The position numbers were made by a program, and so were the translations under genes. A DNA stretch of 64,000 nucleotides, from contig NZ_JAUSQU010000001.1 of NCBI RefSeq assembly GCF_030811455.1, positions 4,960,001-5,024,000 of the forward strand, read 5' to 3'. Positions 21,885 to 30,543 of the stretch are shown one piece after another (position 1 is the first letter of the stretch; the number at the start of each line of letters is the position of its first letter). The notes under the pieces were generated by a model that saw only the letters and a list, made by a program, of their open reading frames with translations, did no database searches and was not told the DNA's origin. Origin of the DNA: Streptosporangium lutulentum. Its GTDB lineage: Bacteria > Actinomycetota > Actinomycetes > Streptosporangiales > Streptosporangiaceae.

Positions 21885-23375
21885 CTAGGTCGTGTCGCCG
21901 GAGTCACAGGCGACGCCGTCCCCGTCCTTGTCGACGTACCACTCGTACTCCTCGTGGGTCTCCTTGTAGTAGGGCCCGTAGCCGTCGAGGAGCGCGGCCT
22001 TGCAGTTCGGATACCTGGGGTCGAGTTCGGAGCCGGCGGCCCCCGTCGAGGACGGGGCATCCGGCCGGCGCGTCGTACCGGGCCCCGCGGCCGGTGCGAC
22101 CGTCGCGGACCGACCCGCCGGCTGCGAGGTGTTCGCGGCCGGCGGAGTCGAGGGCGGGGTCACGGGCTGGTTCGAGGACGGGGCCGAGGGCGGGGTCACG
22201 GGCTGGTTCGAGGACCCGGACGTGACGGACGGCGCCGTCGGCTGGGGCTGGCCCGTCGGCTGGGGCTGGCCCGTCGGCGCCCCGGTCGTGCCGGCCCCTC
22301 CACCGAGCAGTCGCACGACCATGGCGTCCGCCTGCTCCTTGGTGAAGGAGCCCGCGATGCTGAGGCTGTCATCGGTGATCACTTGGGCGACCCGGGGAGC
22401 CGCCACCACCTTCTCCCCCACGACGATCGCGATCGGCTGGTCGACCGTCTCCTGCGTCAGGTCGTTGATCTGATCGCTGAACGCGGGCGCGAACGCGATC
22501 CTGACCGAGTAGGCGCCGCTCTTCTCCCTGATGGCCTCGATCTTCCGTACGGCGTCCACGTTCACCCCGGCGGCGATCATGTAGCAGGCCTGTCCCTGCT
22601 CGTCGGGAACGCCGTCGGGGGTTGTGCAGGCCCCGGCCTGCGTCCCGGTCACCGGGGCGAAGTGGATGGGGATCGACAGGCGCCTGGGCGGCGTGCCCCC
22701 GAGCGGCATGTCGGGGTTCCTGGTCATGAGGACCGCGATGGTGCCGAGCACCCCGGTGATCAGTACGACGACGACCAGGGCGGCGACCAGGATCGCGGTG
22801 GTGGCCCGGCTCGCCCTGGGGGCGCCCGGCACGCCACCGGGCGGACTCGCCTCGGGCGCGCTCGCCCTGTGCTTGCCGCGTGAGGTTCCCGACGGTCCCT
22901 GCGGGCTCCCGGGCTCCTGCGGACCGGGCGGGCTCCCGGCGCCCTGCGAGCTCTCGGCACCCTGCGAGCTCCCGGCGCCCTGCGAGCTCTCGGCACCCTG
23001 CGAGCCGGGCGGACCGCCGGGCAGCCCCGGGGGGCCGGGCGGAGGCTCGGGCGACCCCTGCGAACCGGGAGAGGACTCGGGCGGCATGGATCCGTAGGAC
23101 CCGGTCGGCTCCGAAAAAGGATCACGGGGCCCGGCAGGAGGCCCCTGGGGGCTCAGGGGATGGTCGTGGGGCCCGGCCGGCGGCACCTGCGGATCCGGGG
23201 AGGGGGCCGGCGCCGACTCGAACCAGGATCCCTTCGAATCCGAGGATTCCTGCGCCCCGGGAGGGAGGCCGTGTGGCTCGGGGAAGGTCTCCCGCGTCCA
23301 CGGAGAAGGCTCGCGAGACCCGGCCGGAGGTCCCTGCGGCACGGGCGGCCCACCCGGACCCTCGTGCATCTCCAT
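21885..23375 (-). CDS. Membrane-anchored protein: Pro-rich cytoplasmic region, SecD-P1-like domain and excalibur domain
   Basis: The 496 residues have four parts. Residues 1-190 are Pro/Gly/Ser-rich and disordered, with QGA(E/G)SS-type repeats. About 190-215 is one membrane helix (AILVAALVVVVLITGVLGTIAVL). About 225-360 resembles the SecD/SecF P1 head (AFSDQINDLTQETVDQPIAIVVGEKVVAAPRV...FTKEQADAMVVRLLGGG). A linker with repeated SSNQPVTPPS and TGQPQP units leads to a C-terminal excalibur calcium-binding domain (DPRYPNCKAALLDGYGPY...DKDGDGVAC). P1-like plus excalibur is unusual. The topology places the last two domains outside. Function unknown; a cell-surface role is inferred. Confidence 0.8.
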   Translation of the reverse strand: MEMHEGPGGPPVPQGPPAGSREPSPWTRETFPEPHGLPPGAQESSDSKGSWFESAPAPSPDPQVPPAGPHDHPLSPQGPPAGPRDPFSEPTGSYGSMPPESSPGSQGSPEPPPGPPGLPGGPPGSQGAESSQGAGSSQGAESSQGAGSPPGPQEPGSPQGPSGTSRGKHRASAPEASPPGGVPGAPRASRATTAILVAALVVVVLITGVLGTIAVLMTRNPDMPLGGTPPRRLSIPIHFAPVTGTQAGACTTPDGVPDEQGQACYMIAAGVNVDAVRKIEAIREKSGAYSVRIAFAPAFSDQINDLTQETVDQPIAIVVGEKVVAAPRVAQVITDDSLSIAGSFTKEQADAMVVRLLGGGAGTTGAPTGQPQPTGQPQPTAPSVTSGSSNQPVTPPSAPSSNQPVTPPSTPPAANTSQPAGRSATVAPAAGPGTTRRPDAPSSTGAAGSELDPRYPNCKAALLDGYGPYYKETHEEYEWYVDKDGDGVACDSGDTT

Positions 23376-25385: not shown

Positions 25386-25474
25386 GTGAAACGCGTCGCC
25401 CCGGACGTTCATTCCGGCCGTACGTGAATCCCTCGCATGCGGAAACGGCGATCCGAATGAGGAAAGGGAACGAA

Positions 25475-25675
25475 ATGCTCAGCAAACTGGAAACGCTCGG
25501 CGACCGGTTACTGAACCGGTTCGTGCCCAACACGACGGCGGCGGCGAGCTGCCCGTGTGGCGCCTATCCCTACACCGGCCCGTGCTGGTACTACCCCGCC
25601 TGCGCCGGAGGCCTGCACAAAGACTGTTACTGCACGGACAGCGCGCGTTACATCTCCTGCAGTACCTGCCACTAA
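25475..25675 (+). CDS. Cys-rich peptide precursor (66 aa, eight cysteines)
   Basis: ATG 25475 follows GAGGAAAGGGA, a near-ideal ribosome site; in-frame sequence upstream to 25424 lacks one. Residues 1-24 form an amphipathic leader (SKLETLGDRLLNRF) ending NTTAAA, which is a signal-peptidase AxA site but without a hydrophobic core. Residues 25-66 are the putative core with cysteines at 26, 28, 37, 43, 51, 53, 62 and 65, many Tyr and Pro, and the C-terminus CSTCH. Four disulfides are possible. The pattern recalls, loosely, the eight-cysteine bacteriocin fulvocin C. It heads an operon with redox, export and protease genes. Bacteriocin or signal activity is inferred. Confidence 0.82.
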   Translation: MLSKLETLGDRLLNRFVPNTTAAASCPCGAYPYTGPCWYYPACAGGLHKDCYCTDSARYISCSTCH

Positions 25676-25696
25676 CACCCACTGAGGCCCACCGAC

Positions 25697-26236
25697 ATGG
25701 CATACGTCGTACTGGCTTGCCAGGTGCTTGTGGCAGTCGTCTTCGCGGCAGCGGTAATCAGCAAATGGTCTGGTAAGGCGTTTGCCGAGTTCACGGCCTC
25801 GACCGGCCGGCTGCTGCCGCCCCGCCTCGCGGGGTGGCGGCAGCCGGCCGCCCGGGGGGTGTTCGCCGCCGAGCTGGCCGCCGTGGTCCTGCTGGCCGTT
25901 CCCACCACCGCCGTCATCGGGTTCGCCCTCTCAGCCGTGCTGCTGACCGGGTTCGCGGCCGGGATCGCCGGAGCACTGCGCCGGGGTGAACGCACCCCGT
26001 GCCGCTGCTTCGGGGCCGCGGGCACACGACTCGGACCGGCGCACCTGGTGCGCAACCTGGTGCTGGCCGTCATCGCGGCCGTCGGGCTGGCGGTGTCGCT
26101 GTCGGCGCCGGCCGCGCCGGTGCAGCCGGCGCCCGCCGCGGTCCTGGTCGTCGCCTCCCTCGCGGGCGCCGCTCTCGTGATCCGAATGGACGATCTCATC
26201 ACCCTGTTCGCTCCCCCCTCCGTATCGTCGAAATAG
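25697..26236 (+). CDS. MauE/DoxX-like redox-associated membrane protein
   Basis: This 179-residue protein has four to five membrane helices and matches the MauE family (methylamine utilisation). The key sign is the PCRCFGA motif with C102 and C104 at a membrane boundary. An additional Cys lies near residue 9 in the first helix. In methylamine dehydrogenase biogenesis MauE, with MauD, is needed to form the many disulfides of the light chain; it belongs to a VKOR/DsbB-like functional class. Located 21 bases after the eight-cysteine peptide gene and just before a thioredoxin-like gene, it is the likely membrane oxidase of that pair. Confidence 0.85.
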   Translation: MAYVVLACQVLVAVVFAAAVISKWSGKAFAEFTASTGRLLPPRLAGWRQPAARGVFAAELAAVVLLAVPTTAVIGFALSAVLLTGFAAGIAGALRRGERTPCRCFGAAGTRLGPAHLVRNLVLAVIAAVGLAVSLSAPAAPVQPAPAAVLVVASLAGAALVIRMDDLITLFAPPSVSSK

Positions 26237-26252
26237 AACGGAAGTAGCCAAC

Positions 26253-26795
26253 ATGCTCGTTGTCACGGCCACTCTCCTGTGTGTCGCCATGACCGCCCTG
26301 AACCTGGTCCTCAGCCTCGGCGTGGTCCGCCGGCTGCGGGACCACAACGACCGCCTCACCGCTCTGGAAAAGGCCGAGTCAAGACCCGACCCCATGATCG
26401 GTCCGGGAACCCGCCCCGCCGCTTTCGCCGCCACCACGGTGGACGCCGAGCCGATCACCGAAGCGGGCCTCGCCGGTGGCGGGCTGGTGGGATTCTTCTC
26501 CCCCACCTGCGGTTCGTGCGAGGAGTGGCTGCCGCAGTTCGCCGCGGCGGCCGGCGCGCTGCCGGGCGGCCCGCGTCAGGCGCTGGCCGTGGTCGTGGCG
26601 GAGACGGAGACGGAGGCGGCCGACATGGTGTCGAGGCTCCGCGACGTCGCCATGGTCGTGGTCGAGAAGGACGGCGGGCCGCTGTCCACCGCGTTCAAGA
26701 TCTCCGGTTACCCCGCCATGTGCCGCCTGAACGACGACGGATCCGTGGCCACCTTCAAACCCGCGGACGTGGTCACCGTGCCGGTGGTGGCGTGA
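26253..26795 (+). CDS. MauD/TlpA-like thiol-disulfide oxidoreductase
   Basis: The 180 residues start with one membrane anchor (about 1-25), then a short coiled linker (RRLRDHNDRLTALEKAE) and a thioredoxin fold. The active site C86-G-S-C89 lies in FFSPTCGSCEEWLPQF, and a cis-proline-type segment occurs in SGYPAMCRL. The anchor puts the catalytic domain outside the cell. It should introduce or isomerise disulfides in the exported eight-cysteine peptide, recycled by the MauE-like protein, much as BdbA/BdbB act in the sublancin cluster. The stop overlaps the exporter start (GTGA). Confidence 0.88.
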   Translation: MLVVTATLLCVAMTALNLVLSLGVVRRLRDHNDRLTALEKAESRPDPMIGPGTRPAAFAATTVDAEPITEAGLAGGGLVGFFSPTCGSCEEWLPQFAAAAGALPGGPRQALAVVVAETETEAADMVSRLRDVAMVVVEKDGGPLSTAFKISGYPAMCRLNDDGSVATFKPADVVTVPVVA

Positions 26796-28636
26796 GTGAA
26801 ACCCCGGCGACGATCCGGCTCACCCCTCGGACGGCTCTGAGCCACGCCCGCACGGCCGCCCGGCTGACGCTGAAGGCGGCACCGTGGAGCCTGGCGCTGC
26901 TCGCGGTGCTGGCGGTCGCCGCCGGACTGGCGCCGGTGGCGACCGCGTGGCTCAGCAGATTGGTGCTGGACGGCCTGGTCGACGGTATGGGCGGTCCGGC
27001 ACTGGTCTGGCTGGCCGTCACGCTGGCCCTCGTCGGGATCGCCACGGTGATCCTGCCCAGGCTGTCCCAGTACGCCGAGGCGGAGCTCGGGCGGCGGGTG
27101 AGAGTGATCGCGGTGGACCGGCTCTACACCGCGATGAATCAGCGGTTGCGGGGGCTCACCACGCTGGAGGACCCGCGCTTCCACGACCGGATCCGGCTGG
27201 CGCAGCAGGGCGGCAGTGTCGCGCCGGGTGACCTGGTGAACAGCGCGACCGGGATCGGCAGGGGTGCGCTGACCCTGACCGGTTTCCTGGTCACCCTGTT
27301 GCTGGTCAATCCCTGGCTGGTGCTGGCCGTGGCGGTCGCCTCGATCCCGACCGTGCGCGCGGAGATCCTCATGGGCCGGCGCCGGATGCAGGCGATGTGG
27401 CGGATCGGCCACGCCGAGCGGCGCCAGTATTTCTACGCGAACCTGCTCAGCTCCCCGCGGGAGGCCAAGGAGATCCGTCTCTTCGGCCTGGGGACCTTCT
27501 TCCGGGACCGGATGCTGGGCGAGCTGAGGTCCGCCAACGCCGCCAACCACTCCCTGGACCGGCGGGAACTGGGAACGCAGATCCTGCTCGGTGTCCTGGG
27601 GGCCGTGGTCGCCGGAGGCGGACTGGTCTGGGCGATCCAGGCCGCCCGGTCCGGGCGGTTGACCGTGGGGGACGTGACGGTGTTCGTGGCCGCGATCGCC
27701 GGGGTCCAGGGCGCCATCTCCGGAATCGTGGGACAGCTGGGAAGCGCCCACCAGGCGCTGCTCATGCTGGACCACTACCACGTGGCGACCACGGTGGAAC
27801 CCGACCTGCCGGTTCCGGCGGCACCCGCCCCGGTGCCGGCGCTGACGGACAAGATCGAGCTCCGGGACGTCTGGTTCCGGTACGGTCCGGATCTGCCATG
27901 GGTGCTCCGCGGGGTGAATCTCACCATCCCCGCCGGCCGGGCCACCGCGCTGGTCGGGCTCAACGGGACCGGGAAGAGCACGCTCGTGAAGCTGCTCTGC
28001 CGGCTCTACGACCCCACCCGCGGTCAGATCCGCTGGGACGGGGTCGATCTGAAGGAGACCGATCCCGCCGAGCTGCGGGAGCGGATCGGCACGGTGTTCC
28101 AGGACTACGTGGAGTACGAGCTGTCCGCGGCGGAGAACATCGGCCTGGGTGACCTGGCCCGCATCCAGGACCGGGACCGGATCGAGGCCGCCGCCCGCCA
28201 GGCCGGGGTTCACCAGGCGCTGGCCTCACTGCCGAAGGGTTACGACACCATGCTGACGCGGATGTTCCTGGAGGGCGTCGACGACCCGGAGTCCGGGGTG
28301 CTCCTCTCCGGCGGGCAGGGGCAGCGGCTGGCTCTGGCCCGGGCGCTGCTACGGGACGAGCGGGATCTCCTCATCCTCGACGAACCCAGCTCCGGCCTGG
28401 ACGCCGAGGCCGAGGCCGAGATCCACACCCGGCTGCGGGAGCACCGCGCCAGCCGCACCAGTCTGCTGATCTCCCACCGCCTGAACACGATTCGCGACGC
28501 GGACCGGATCGCGGTTCTTTCCGACGGGGAGATCGCCGAGTACGGAGACCACGACCAGTTGATCACCGAGAACGGCGTCTACGCCCGGCTCTTCGCCCTG
28601 CAGGCCCGCGGCTACGCCGAAACGACGCCCCGATGA
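26792..28636 (+). CDS. ABC exporter, fused membrane and ATPase domains (peptide export candidate)
   Basis: GTG 26792 gives 614 residues, a half-transporter. Residues about 25-310 hold six membrane helices of type-1 exporter fold, and about 340-600 the nucleotide-binding domain. Walker A is GLNGTGKST near residue 388, the Q-loop is VFQDYVEYELS, the signature LSGGQGQRLAL is near 508, and Walker B is DLLILDEPSSGLD. There is no N-terminal C39 peptidase domain, so leader removal must be done by another protein; the next gene encodes an S26 protease. It most likely exports the Cys-rich peptide. Start and stop both overlap neighbours by four bases. Confidence 0.9.
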   Translation: MSETPATIRLTPRTALSHARTAARLTLKAAPWSLALLAVLAVAAGLAPVATAWLSRLVLDGLVDGMGGPALVWLAVTLALVGIATVILPRLSQYAEAELGRRVRVIAVDRLYTAMNQRLRGLTTLEDPRFHDRIRLAQQGGSVAPGDLVNSATGIGRGALTLTGFLVTLLLVNPWLVLAVAVASIPTVRAEILMGRRRMQAMWRIGHAERRQYFYANLLSSPREAKEIRLFGLGTFFRDRMLGELRSANAANHSLDRRELGTQILLGVLGAVVAGGGLVWAIQAARSGRLTVGDVTVFVAAIAGVQGAISGIVGQLGSAHQALLMLDHYHVATTVEPDLPVPAAPAPVPALTDKIELRDVWFRYGPDLPWVLRGVNLTIPAGRATALVGLNGTGKSTLVKLLCRLYDPTRGQIRWDGVDLKETDPAELRERIGTVFQDYVEYELSAAENIGLGDLARIQDRDRIEAAARQAGVHQALASLPKGYDTMLTRMFLEGVDDPESGVLLSGGQGQRLALARALLRDERDLLILDEPSSGLDAEAEAEIHTRLREHRASRTSLLISHRLNTIRDADRIAVLSDGEIAEYGDHDQLITENGVYARLFALQARGYAETTPR

Positions 28637-29082
28637 TCTGGCTGCCACTGGCCGCGACGGCGGTGGCCGCGGCGTGGCTGGAGTGGCTGCGACGGCGGCA
28701 CCTGGTGGTCGCCGTACGAGGTCCCAGCATGGCCCCCACCTACCACCACGGCGACCGGGTGCTGGTGCGACGTCGTTCGGGACGCCGGCTGCGGACCGGC
28801 CAGGTGGCCGTGGTCGACCTGCCCGAGCGGTTACGGCCCATGCCGGACGGCGTCAGCCTGGAGGAGTCCCTGCGCAACCGGCGGGTCATCAAACGCGTCG
28901 CGGCGGTCCCCGGTGACCGGGTGCCCTTCCCCATCGAGGGACCTGGGCCGGTGGTGCCCTCCGGCTGTCTGGTGCTTCTCGGAGACAACCCCGACGGCAG
29001 CGGAGACTCCCGGCAGTACGGTTACGTCCCCGTCGACGCCGTGGTGGGCGTGGTGGTCCGCCCCTTGCGGACGCGGTCGTGA
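28633..29082 (+). CDS. S26-family signal peptidase-like protease
   Basis: This 149-residue protein has a single N-terminal membrane helix (1-22) and then a compact S26 domain with the catalytic serine S32 in GPSMAPTYHHGD, the catalytic lysine K87 in RRVIKRVAAVPGD, and the GDNPDGSGDSRQYG box. It is short for a housekeeping signal peptidase (usually over 200 residues in actinobacteria), as expected for a dedicated enzyme. Its ATG overlaps the exporter stop. The peptide leader ends with AAA before S25, a fitting cleavage site. It is the last gene of the peptide operon. Confidence 0.88.
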   Translation: MIWLPLAATAVAAAWLEWLRRRHLVVAVRGPSMAPTYHHGDRVLVRRRSGRRLRTGQVAVVDLPERLRPMPDGVSLEESLRNRRVIKRVAAVPGDRVPFPIEGPGPVVPSGCLVLLGDNPDGSGDSRQYGYVPVDAVVGVVVRPLRTRS

Positions 29083-29146: not shown

Positions 29147-29770
29147 TCAGCTCAGGGGGTCGCCTGTTCCGCCGGTGCACGCCGCGCCGACCTCAGGGGC
29201 GTCGGGACCGTTCTTGAACTTGGAGATGAACCTCGCCAGTCGAGGATCTCCCGCATCCGTGATGCCCGTGAGTTGCTTACTCCACGAACTGATGACAATC
29301 GGCGACGGAATCCCCTGATAGGGACTGAGGAGAACGTAGTCCTGCTGCTTGCGGACGAGTTCGCGAAGCTGCTCGACCTGAGCCTGGGGCAGATCCGGGC
29401 GGTAGGTGATCCACACGGTTCCGTGCTCCAGCGAGTGGACCGCCTTCTCGTTGGCGACCGGCTGGTCGTAGATTCCGCAGTTCTGCCAATCCGGCGGCGG
29501 GGCGTGCGGTCCCCCGACCGGCGGGACCTCCTTGTAGGTGACCGGATCGGTGGTGTGTTCGCTTCCGAGGTATTGGAAGGACTTCACCGCATCCAATGAG
29601 CTGGCCGACCGCTCGTTGACGATGTAGAACCCGACCAGTCCGACGAGCAGCACGATGACGGCACCTCCGGAGCCCCACATCAGGAACGCGGTCCGGCGTT
29701 CCTTACGTTTCTGCTCCGCACGCATGCGGTCAAGATGATCTCGCCGCGCCTGTGTCTTTTCCTTCGTCAT
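29147..29770 (-). CDS. DUF3105 membrane-anchored protein
   Basis: This 207-residue protein has a charged N-terminus (Lys/Arg-rich to residue 27), one membrane helix (about 28-50) and an extracytoplasmic DUF3105 domain with PPVGGPHAPPPDWQNCGIYDQPV, HSLEHGTVWITYRP and a late Cys. The conserved His and Cys residues suggest metal or redox chemistry, but no function is established. It diverges from the DUF305 gene across a ~120-base promoter region. The DUF3105/DUF305 pairing recurs in actinobacteria, as I recall. Confidence 0.85.
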   Translation of the reverse strand: MTKEKTQARRDHLDRMRAEQKRKERRTAFLMWGSGGAVIVLLVGLVGFYIVNERSASSLDAVKSFQYLGSEHTTDPVTYKEVPPVGGPHAPPPDWQNCGIYDQPVANEKAVHSLEHGTVWITYRPDLPQAQVEQLRELVRKQQDYVLLSPYQGIPSPIVISSWSKQLTGITDAGDPRLARFISKFKNGPDAPEVGAACTGGTGDPLS

Positions 29771-29892
29771 CGCCCCTCCAGTCGACGCCCAATTTTCGGA
29801 TCACACTATGCCCTGGCGGTGTATATAGAGAATAAACGGATCGCAATGCAGCATGCAGCAGTGATTCACGACAGGGGTACCCTGGGTGGGCA

Positions 29893-30543
29893 ATGGAAGA
29901 TTCTACCGAAGGTCAACTGAAGCCCAAGCGCCGCGTGCTGCTCGGCCTGCTGCTCGGCTGTCTGGTCGTGGCGGCCGTCCTACTGCTGATCGTCGGCAGG
30001 AGCACGGACCCGACCGACGCTTCGGCCGAAGCGGGTTTCGCTCGCGACATGGCCGTCCACCATGCCCAAGCCGTCGAGATGTCCTTCATCGCCAGGGATG
30101 GAAGTAAGGACGAGACACTCCGGGGGCTGACCTACGACATCATCATCACGCAGACCGCCCAGCGCGGAATCTTCATGGGATGGCTTCAACAGTGGGGGCT
30201 GAACCAGGCCAGTGAGCGGCCGACGATGGCGTGGATGGCCGGTCACGGCCATGGCGGCACGGCGGTGGCCTCCACGACGATGCCCGGCATGGCCAGCATG
30301 GACGAGCTCAAAAAGCTCCGCGAGGCCACCGGCGAGGATCAGGAGATCCTCTTTCTGCAGCTCATGATCCGCCATCACGAGGGCGGCGTGCAGATGGCCC
30401 AGGCCCTGCTGAAATTGTCGAACCGTAACGATGTGACCACGGCGGCGAGACACATCGTCCAAAGTCAGACCGGTGAGATCAAACTGATGACCGACATGCT
30501 GAGGCAGCGTGGCGCCCAACCGCTGCCTTCCATCCTTAAGTAG
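29893..30543 (+). CDS. DUF305 (CopM-like) exported or anchored protein
   Basis: The 216 residues begin with a basic stretch and one membrane helix (about 16-37). Two DUF305 motifs follow: FARDMAVHHAQAVEMSFIA near residue 50 and LQLMIRHHEGGVQMAQALL near 154, each with the paired histidines and methionines typical of this metal-binding four-helix bundle. A His/Met-rich loop (AWMAGHGHGGTAVASTTMPGMASM) lies between. Copper or silver binding outside the cell is the usual proposal for the family. It is divergent from DUF3105, with DUF3467 starting 70 bases downstream. Confidence 0.88.
   Translation: MEDSTEGQLKPKRRVLLGLLLGCLVVAAVLLLIVGRSTDPTDASAEAGFARDMAVHHAQAVEMSFIARDGSKDETLRGLTYDIIITQTAQRGIFMGWLQQWGLNQASERPTMAWMAGHGHGGTAVASTTMPGMASMDELKKLREATGEDQEILFLQLMIRHHEGGVQMAQALLKLSNRNDVTTAARHIVQSQTGEIKLMTDMLRQRGAQPLPSILK

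Follow-up and report, generated by a model that had tools for sequence, protein, structure and literature searches.

A five-gene cluster in Streptosporangium lutulentum as an apparent member of an actinobacterial class of cysteine-rich leader-core peptides

In the 64,000-nucleotide stretch of the 10.6 Mb Streptosporangium lutulentum genome analysed here (the window; contig NZ_JAUSQU010000001.1, positions 4,960,001 to 5,024,000), five genes on the same (+) strand at 25475–29082 form a cluster encoding a small cysteine-rich peptide, a MauE-like membrane protein, a thioredoxin-like protein, an ATP-binding cassette (ABC) exporter and an S26 peptidase. The precursor peptide gene (25475..25675, +; ATG at 25475, stop codon ending at 25675) follows a ribosome-binding-site-like AGGAAAGG (25460..25467, +, as we read the sequence) and encodes 66 amino acids (aa) with eight cysteines; eight close relatives share its start. 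By family consensus the predicted leader comprises residues 1–24 (25475..25546) and ends in A22-A23-A24, and beyond this putative A-x-A cleavage site the predicted core of 42 residues (25547..25672) holds all eight cysteines. There follow a MauE/DoxX-family membrane protein with C102-x-C104 (25697..26236), a thioredoxin-like protein that has C86-GS-C89 and, by our reading, a hydrophobic stretch at its N terminus (26253..26795), a half-ABC exporter starting at GTG (26792..28636) and a short S26 peptidase with an S32/K87 dyad (28633..29082), all on the + strand. The first-pass annotation of the window described these as tight genes with four-base overlaps; such overlaps join thioredoxin to ABC and ABC to S26, that is, two of the four junctions, while gaps of 21 and 16 bases separate peptide from MauE and MauE from thioredoxin.

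Its description of the five products was borne out, beginning with the reading frame of the eight-cysteine peptide. The MauE-like protein matched PF07291 (E 2.6e-24, 86.4 bits against a cut-off of 27), its CxC being C102-R-C104, and the S26 peptidase matched PF10502 (72.1 bits, cut-off 22.9) with both dyad residues present. A MauE entry of 132 aa from S. lutulentum was identical across the aligned part, 47% of the query. In the ABC protein ABC_tran scored above its Pfam cut-off and ABC_membrane just under (26.3 bits, cut-off 28), and its 12 Pfam matches included no C39 peptidase domain, as had been stated. The thioredoxin-like protein does contain the CGSC noted earlier; it reached 20.9 bits on PF00085, under the cut-off of 23.5, and all six of its NCBIfam matches at E ≤ 1 (PDI, ResA, StoA, TrxC and one antiporter model) were likewise sub-cut-off. 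Among those six was no MauD model, although NCBIfam presumably holds a curated one, and the label 'MauD-type' can be kept as an analogy only. PHROGs gave no match for the peptide or the thioredoxin-like protein. Two open frames at other loci (L045 and L049) matched both the MauE and the thioredoxin models; we rejected them as fusions, their MauE part looking frame-shifted.

The peptide itself had no Pfam or NCBIfam family match at E ≤ 1. Among 5.8 billion proteins it has five close relatives, the closest named one being from S. roseum (82% identity), and three more close loci lie in Micromonosporaceae (Plantactinospora mayteni, Jidongwangia harbinensis and Virgisporangium aurantiacum), of which two have MauE positioned after S26 and the third has no MauE that we could find. 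The eight cysteines are invariant in nine aligned close sequences; the single tryptophan of the window peptide is not kept, being tyrosine in L042 and asparagine in L044. A profile of six close sequences matched 44 of the 345 genomes of the order, and all 61 matching places besides the window were retrieved. Two matches were discarded as class peptides, an unrelated 240-aa protein (L088) and a broken frame (L096); both were kept in the 65-place partner count given below and dropped from the peptide counts. The class so delineated has a leader consensus, LxDRLLxRxVPxxxAxA, followed by very different cysteine-rich cores. A profile of 50 class peptides reached 165 of the 345 order genomes at E ≤ 0.001, in 29 of 70 genera and at up to ten places per genome, and at E ≤ 0.01 it matched 29 of 394 genomes in an even sample at the level of the class Actinomycetes; five weak even-sample matches (G504, G527, G531, G558 and G620; E 0.002–0.01) were left out, as were additional places in genomes that had been sampled before. 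It also matched 39 of 246 genomes of the genus of G512, which we guess is probably Streptomyces. A protein search with the same profile returned 34 proteins at E ≤ 1, the names given being 'hypothetical protein', 'Uncharacterized protein' and 'Secreted protein', and the 50 peptides had no credible NCBIfam or Pfam match (best E 0.084 and 0.01). The peptide system is real and recurrent and has no Pfam or NCBIfam model, and by sequence the window cluster appears to be one member of this large actinobacterial class.

A strict leader pattern of the A-x-A type fits 119 of the 124 peptides, and the five that do not fit fail in its DR part with A-x-A still present. Cysteine occurs in one of the 119 leaders. 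The best ten-residue mean hydropathy of the leader is 0.20 in the window peptide (class median 0.84, maximum 1.98), and with such low hydrophobicity the leader is therefore not Sec-like. Pairwise identity in the alignment of 50 peptides was 0.50 for leaders against 0.13 for cores outside Cys-Cys columns. Most class peptides have four or six cysteines, with cores of up to twelve, and an even count characterises the cores of 115 of 119 peptides (110 of the 114 distinct cores); among the 63 distinct spacing patterns 59 are even (binomial p 1.4e-13, assuming that odd and even are equally likely and the patterns independent); the four cores with odd counts are those of L058, L079, L100 and L198. 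One compact subfamily (L192, L201, L203, L204, L206, L209, L213 and L235) has cores of about 20 residues with four cysteines and a CWW start. The alignments thus show a leader/core organisation as in ribosomally synthesized and post-translationally modified peptides (RiPPs), modification itself being predicted.

Relatives of the peptide do carry the partner genes, contrary to the outcome that the first-pass annotation had named as fatal to its proposal. Within 6 kb of the 65 places of the first set, S26 was present at 59, ABC at 56, thioredoxin at 55 and MauE at 47; counted among these places are the window, the loci of the three Micromonosporaceae and the two discarded matches, and since some share a locus they are not independent. 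A second set comprised 21 peptide places at 18 loci, with five genomes of another family among its sources, and every one of the 21 had all four partners in the retrieved stretch. For a third set we took 40 test loci, each the first-listed place of a previously unsampled genome, in list order among the matches listed, and applied partner models built on the first set, counting a partner at E ≤ 1e-8 within 6 kb (ABC only above 300 bits) by the same rule as in 20 control stretches, which were taken at round coordinates from seven genomes. ABC was found at 38 of these loci, several of which carry near-identical peptides, S26 at 38, thioredoxin at 35, MauE at 26 and all four at 23, against 0 of 20 controls for each partner. 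The association exceeds chance, recurring at related peptides and being absent from the 20 controls. Catalytic residues are kept across loci: the MauE CxC in 59 of 61 (two gapped), the thioredoxin CxxC in 70 of 71, and the S26 serine in 73 of 73 and lysine in 71 of 73 (two gapped).

Genes for SARP/AfsR-type regulators, a family that also governs antibiotic production, are present no further than 6.5 kb from 40 of the 78 loci, and at 14 of the 40 test loci compared with 1 of 20 controls; the window cluster has none within 6.5 kb. Among the neighbour families listed, those recurring at four or more of the 78 loci comprised SARP regulators, response regulators, histidine kinases and miscellaneous genes, names that reflect a reading of the sequences, with two BTAD regulators alone checked by domain match. 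As the first-pass annotation had held for the window, no modification enzyme was recognised among these recurrent families.

The host genome has a second such cluster (L133:4527-11337; G000:C1, about 3.5385–3.5453 Mb), in which a 62-aa peptide holding six cysteines is accompanied by MauE, thioredoxin, ABC, S26 and a regulator of SARP/AfsR type (BTAD, NB-ARC and TPR domains). Because two further MauE genes in the same genome (G000:C1:4647846-4648247, L134, and 7596906-7597283, L135) have no thioredoxin or S26 partner in the retrieved stretches, MauE alone is no marker of the class. Among plasmids, 31 records had an ABC match, and the three examined (L234–L236) all carry the kit. In S. clavuligerus pSCL4 (L234:4012-8237) two peptide genes (68 and 66 aa, six cysteines each, annotated as hypothetical proteins) precede MauE, thioredoxin, ABC and S26; in Nonomuraea gerenzanensis the peptide has 46 aa and four cysteines, with S26 on the opposite strand; and in S. 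nigrescens a six-cysteine peptide has a BTAD regulator on one side and MauE on the other. The leader pattern missed two of these peptides, the second one of S. clavuligerus and that of S. nigrescens, which were seen by inspection, and a tblastn search of the plasmids with the thioredoxin-like protein gave nothing, although the thioredoxin hidden Markov model matches in all three records.

We consider it probable that the window cluster, as a member of this class, combines leader-directed ABC export, S26 trimming after A-x-A and disulfide formation aided by the MauE/thioredoxin pair. The dedicated half-ABC transporter would recognise the amphipathic leader (residues 1–24) and carry the precursor over the membrane without Sec; on the outer face the S26 peptidase would cleave past A22-A23-A24 and free the 42-residue core, to which the membrane pair of MauE (CxC) and thioredoxin-like protein (CxxC) may hand disulfides, up to four in number, or which it may proofread. 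The product would act as an antagonistic (antimicrobial-type) or a signalling peptide. The order of steps, the cleavage site, the substrate of the redox pair and the role of the product are all inferred. Export by the ABC protein and trimming by S26 are proposed because the leader is non-Sec-like and has an A-x-A end, and because the exporter lacks a protease of its own; S26-type signal peptidases prefer A-x-A ends. Disulfides are proposed because core cysteine counts are even, CxC and CxxC are nearly invariant and no modification enzyme was recognised among the recurrent neighbour families listed, and help from MauE and the thioredoxin-like protein in forming them is the least certain step. 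From the earlier proposal that the cluster exports, oxidises and trims a disulfide peptide, the dedicated, recurrent cluster, the cysteine parity and the conserved residues stand, and its claim to be without precedent falls. More tentatively, and leaning slightly against it ourselves, we suggest that the kit of ABC, S26 and MauE/thioredoxin may read only the shared leader and export and oxidatively fold near-arbitrary cores, a diversifying, conotoxin-like arsenal of disulfide-locked peptides with 4–12 cysteines in dozens of frameworks, often beside SARP regulators, across an actinobacterial order and unmodelled in Pfam and NCBIfam.

The statement that no described family uses such a pair for a small peptide was too strong, because the mauE families of decRiPPter and the DoxX/thioredoxin pair of class I lasso clusters are precedents. 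In the portion of the decRiPPter report (2020; PMC7794033) available to us, three candidate families from Streptomyces have mauE, one of them also mauD, with precursors of at least eight cysteines; its strict filter admitted clusters with a transporter, a peptidase and a regulator, and its authors inferred a role for mauE/mauD in precursor modification. The window cluster fits the mauE part of this description, its mauE lying next to an eight-cysteine precursor. The decRiPPter families are computational candidates, described in that portion without a leader consensus, S26 assignment, parity or spread beyond Streptomyces, and their precursors of at least eight cysteines differ from the four or six typical of the present class; matched by description only, the two are probably the same. 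What is added over decRiPPter is the common leader, the S26 assignment, cysteine parity, hypervariability, order-wide spread, named examples and a control. In the open-access literature searched we found no experimental study of the class and, beyond decRiPPter, no description of it. The class is a variant on leader-core peptide systems already known and was anticipated in part, as a prediction.

Class I lasso clusters (sviceucin, MS-271 and humidimycin) resemble the window, in the parts of their descriptions at hand, in combining a DoxX-family and a thioredoxin-like protein (SviE/SviF, HumE/HumF) with a cysteine-containing precursor and transporter genes (PMC9266682, PMC7168211); they differ in their split B protein and C cyclase, neither matched by the five window genes among the Pfam and NCBIfam matches listed, and those parts name no S26 peptidase. 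Methylamine dehydrogenase maturation by MauE/MauD shares PF07291 and a thioredoxin-like partner with the window, whose substrate, by contrast, is short and hypervariable, and there is no match to MauD or to a light chain. The glycocin sublancin is made with the thiol-disulfide oxidoreductases BdbA/BdbB. Such oxidoreductases acting for a secreted peptide are common to both systems; the five window genes include no glycosyltransferase, and their exporter lacks a C39 protease, an S26 peptidase standing in its place. Glycocin oxidoreductases are also mentioned in the text available of PMC9266682. As to the peptidase, its score on TIGR02754, the model of the nickel superoxide dismutase maturation protease, was 51.0 bits, under the cut-off of 63.25; that protease is a short S26-type peptidase dedicated to one substrate.

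Several findings weigh against oxidation by the redox pair, and most of them suit the view that it keeps the peptide reduced, isomerises wrong disulfides or has a part in export, disulfide formation outside being spontaneous. As reported in the accessible part of PMC9266682, a sviF mutant still made sviceucin, found in mycelia and not in the supernatant, and knock-outs of mslE or mslF still made MS-271, at lower yield; thiol intermediates were not detected. No MauE turned up within 6 kb of 14 of the 40 test loci or of 18 of the 65 first-set places, though divergence or broken frames may account for part of this. The MauE model is similar to NACHO rather than to a known disulfide-generating enzyme: NACHO/TMEM35A stood out in VIA-align, Foldseek with this model gave no match at E ≤ 0.001, and the MauE profile found nothing among solved-structure sequences at E ≤ 1; that no DsbB- or VKOR-type entry was among the 50 VIA-align rows listed proves nothing. 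The proposal as a whole is further weakened in that the peptide system is known here from genes alone, that no recurrent immunity gene was recognised among the neighbour families listed, and that the predicted peptide model is of low confidence (pLDDT 57) and gave no Foldseek match at E ≤ 0.001; the peptide profile had no match among solved-structure sequences at E ≤ 10. A non-oxidant pair nonetheless seems to us somewhat unlikely, given the almost invariant CxC and CxxC, the thioredoxin gene present at 35 of the 40 test loci, and the up to twelve cysteines of a core, which would be expected to need folding help.

That the products are developmental or signalling peptides and not antimicrobials, as the frequency of SARP/AfsR-type genes near these loci and the lack of a recognised immunity gene could suggest, is a little less likely still, since the hypervariability of the cores and the presence of as many as ten matches in a genome suit antagonism better and the window cluster has no such regulator nearby. 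We think it improbable that the cysteines bind metal, as in a metallothionein- or chalkophore-like peptide whose thiols the redox pair would shield in export: the peptides are indeed short and cysteine-rich, and a neighbouring DUF305 protein reaches 68.8 bits on a metallochaperone model (cut-off 90), but the even parity over 63 spacing patterns, the exporter and trimming protease and the almost unrelated core sequences speak against it, and no DUF305 was recognised among the recurrent neighbour families listed. Hardly credible is a light chain of a methylamine-dehydrogenase-like enzyme with a tryptophan-derived cofactor, which the PF07291 protein and its thioredoxin-like partner recall. That light chain carries two cofactor tryptophans; the window peptide has a single, replaceable one, and we rejected this candidate on that ground, on the hypervariable cores of the wider class and on the missing family match. 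Membership of a known family, which the first-pass annotation had allowed for, was accordingly not found.

If disulfide-bonded export is indeed what these clusters do, 165 of the 345 order genomes and 39 of the 246 from what is probably Streptomyces would carry unmodelled disulfide-peptide clusters, a large source of stable small peptides and an opening for studying the folding of multi-disulfide peptides in connection with bacterial export. MauE-family proteins would have a second role, and engineered peptides might possibly be exported and folded with these genes as a kit guided by the leader.

Two features near the window cluster may be recorded. Adjoining it downstream (29147–30543) are a DUF3105 gene (−) and a DUF305/CopM-like gene (+), probably unrelated, and at 21885–23375 (−) we read a long Pro/Gly-rich protein whose short C-terminal part contains cysteines.

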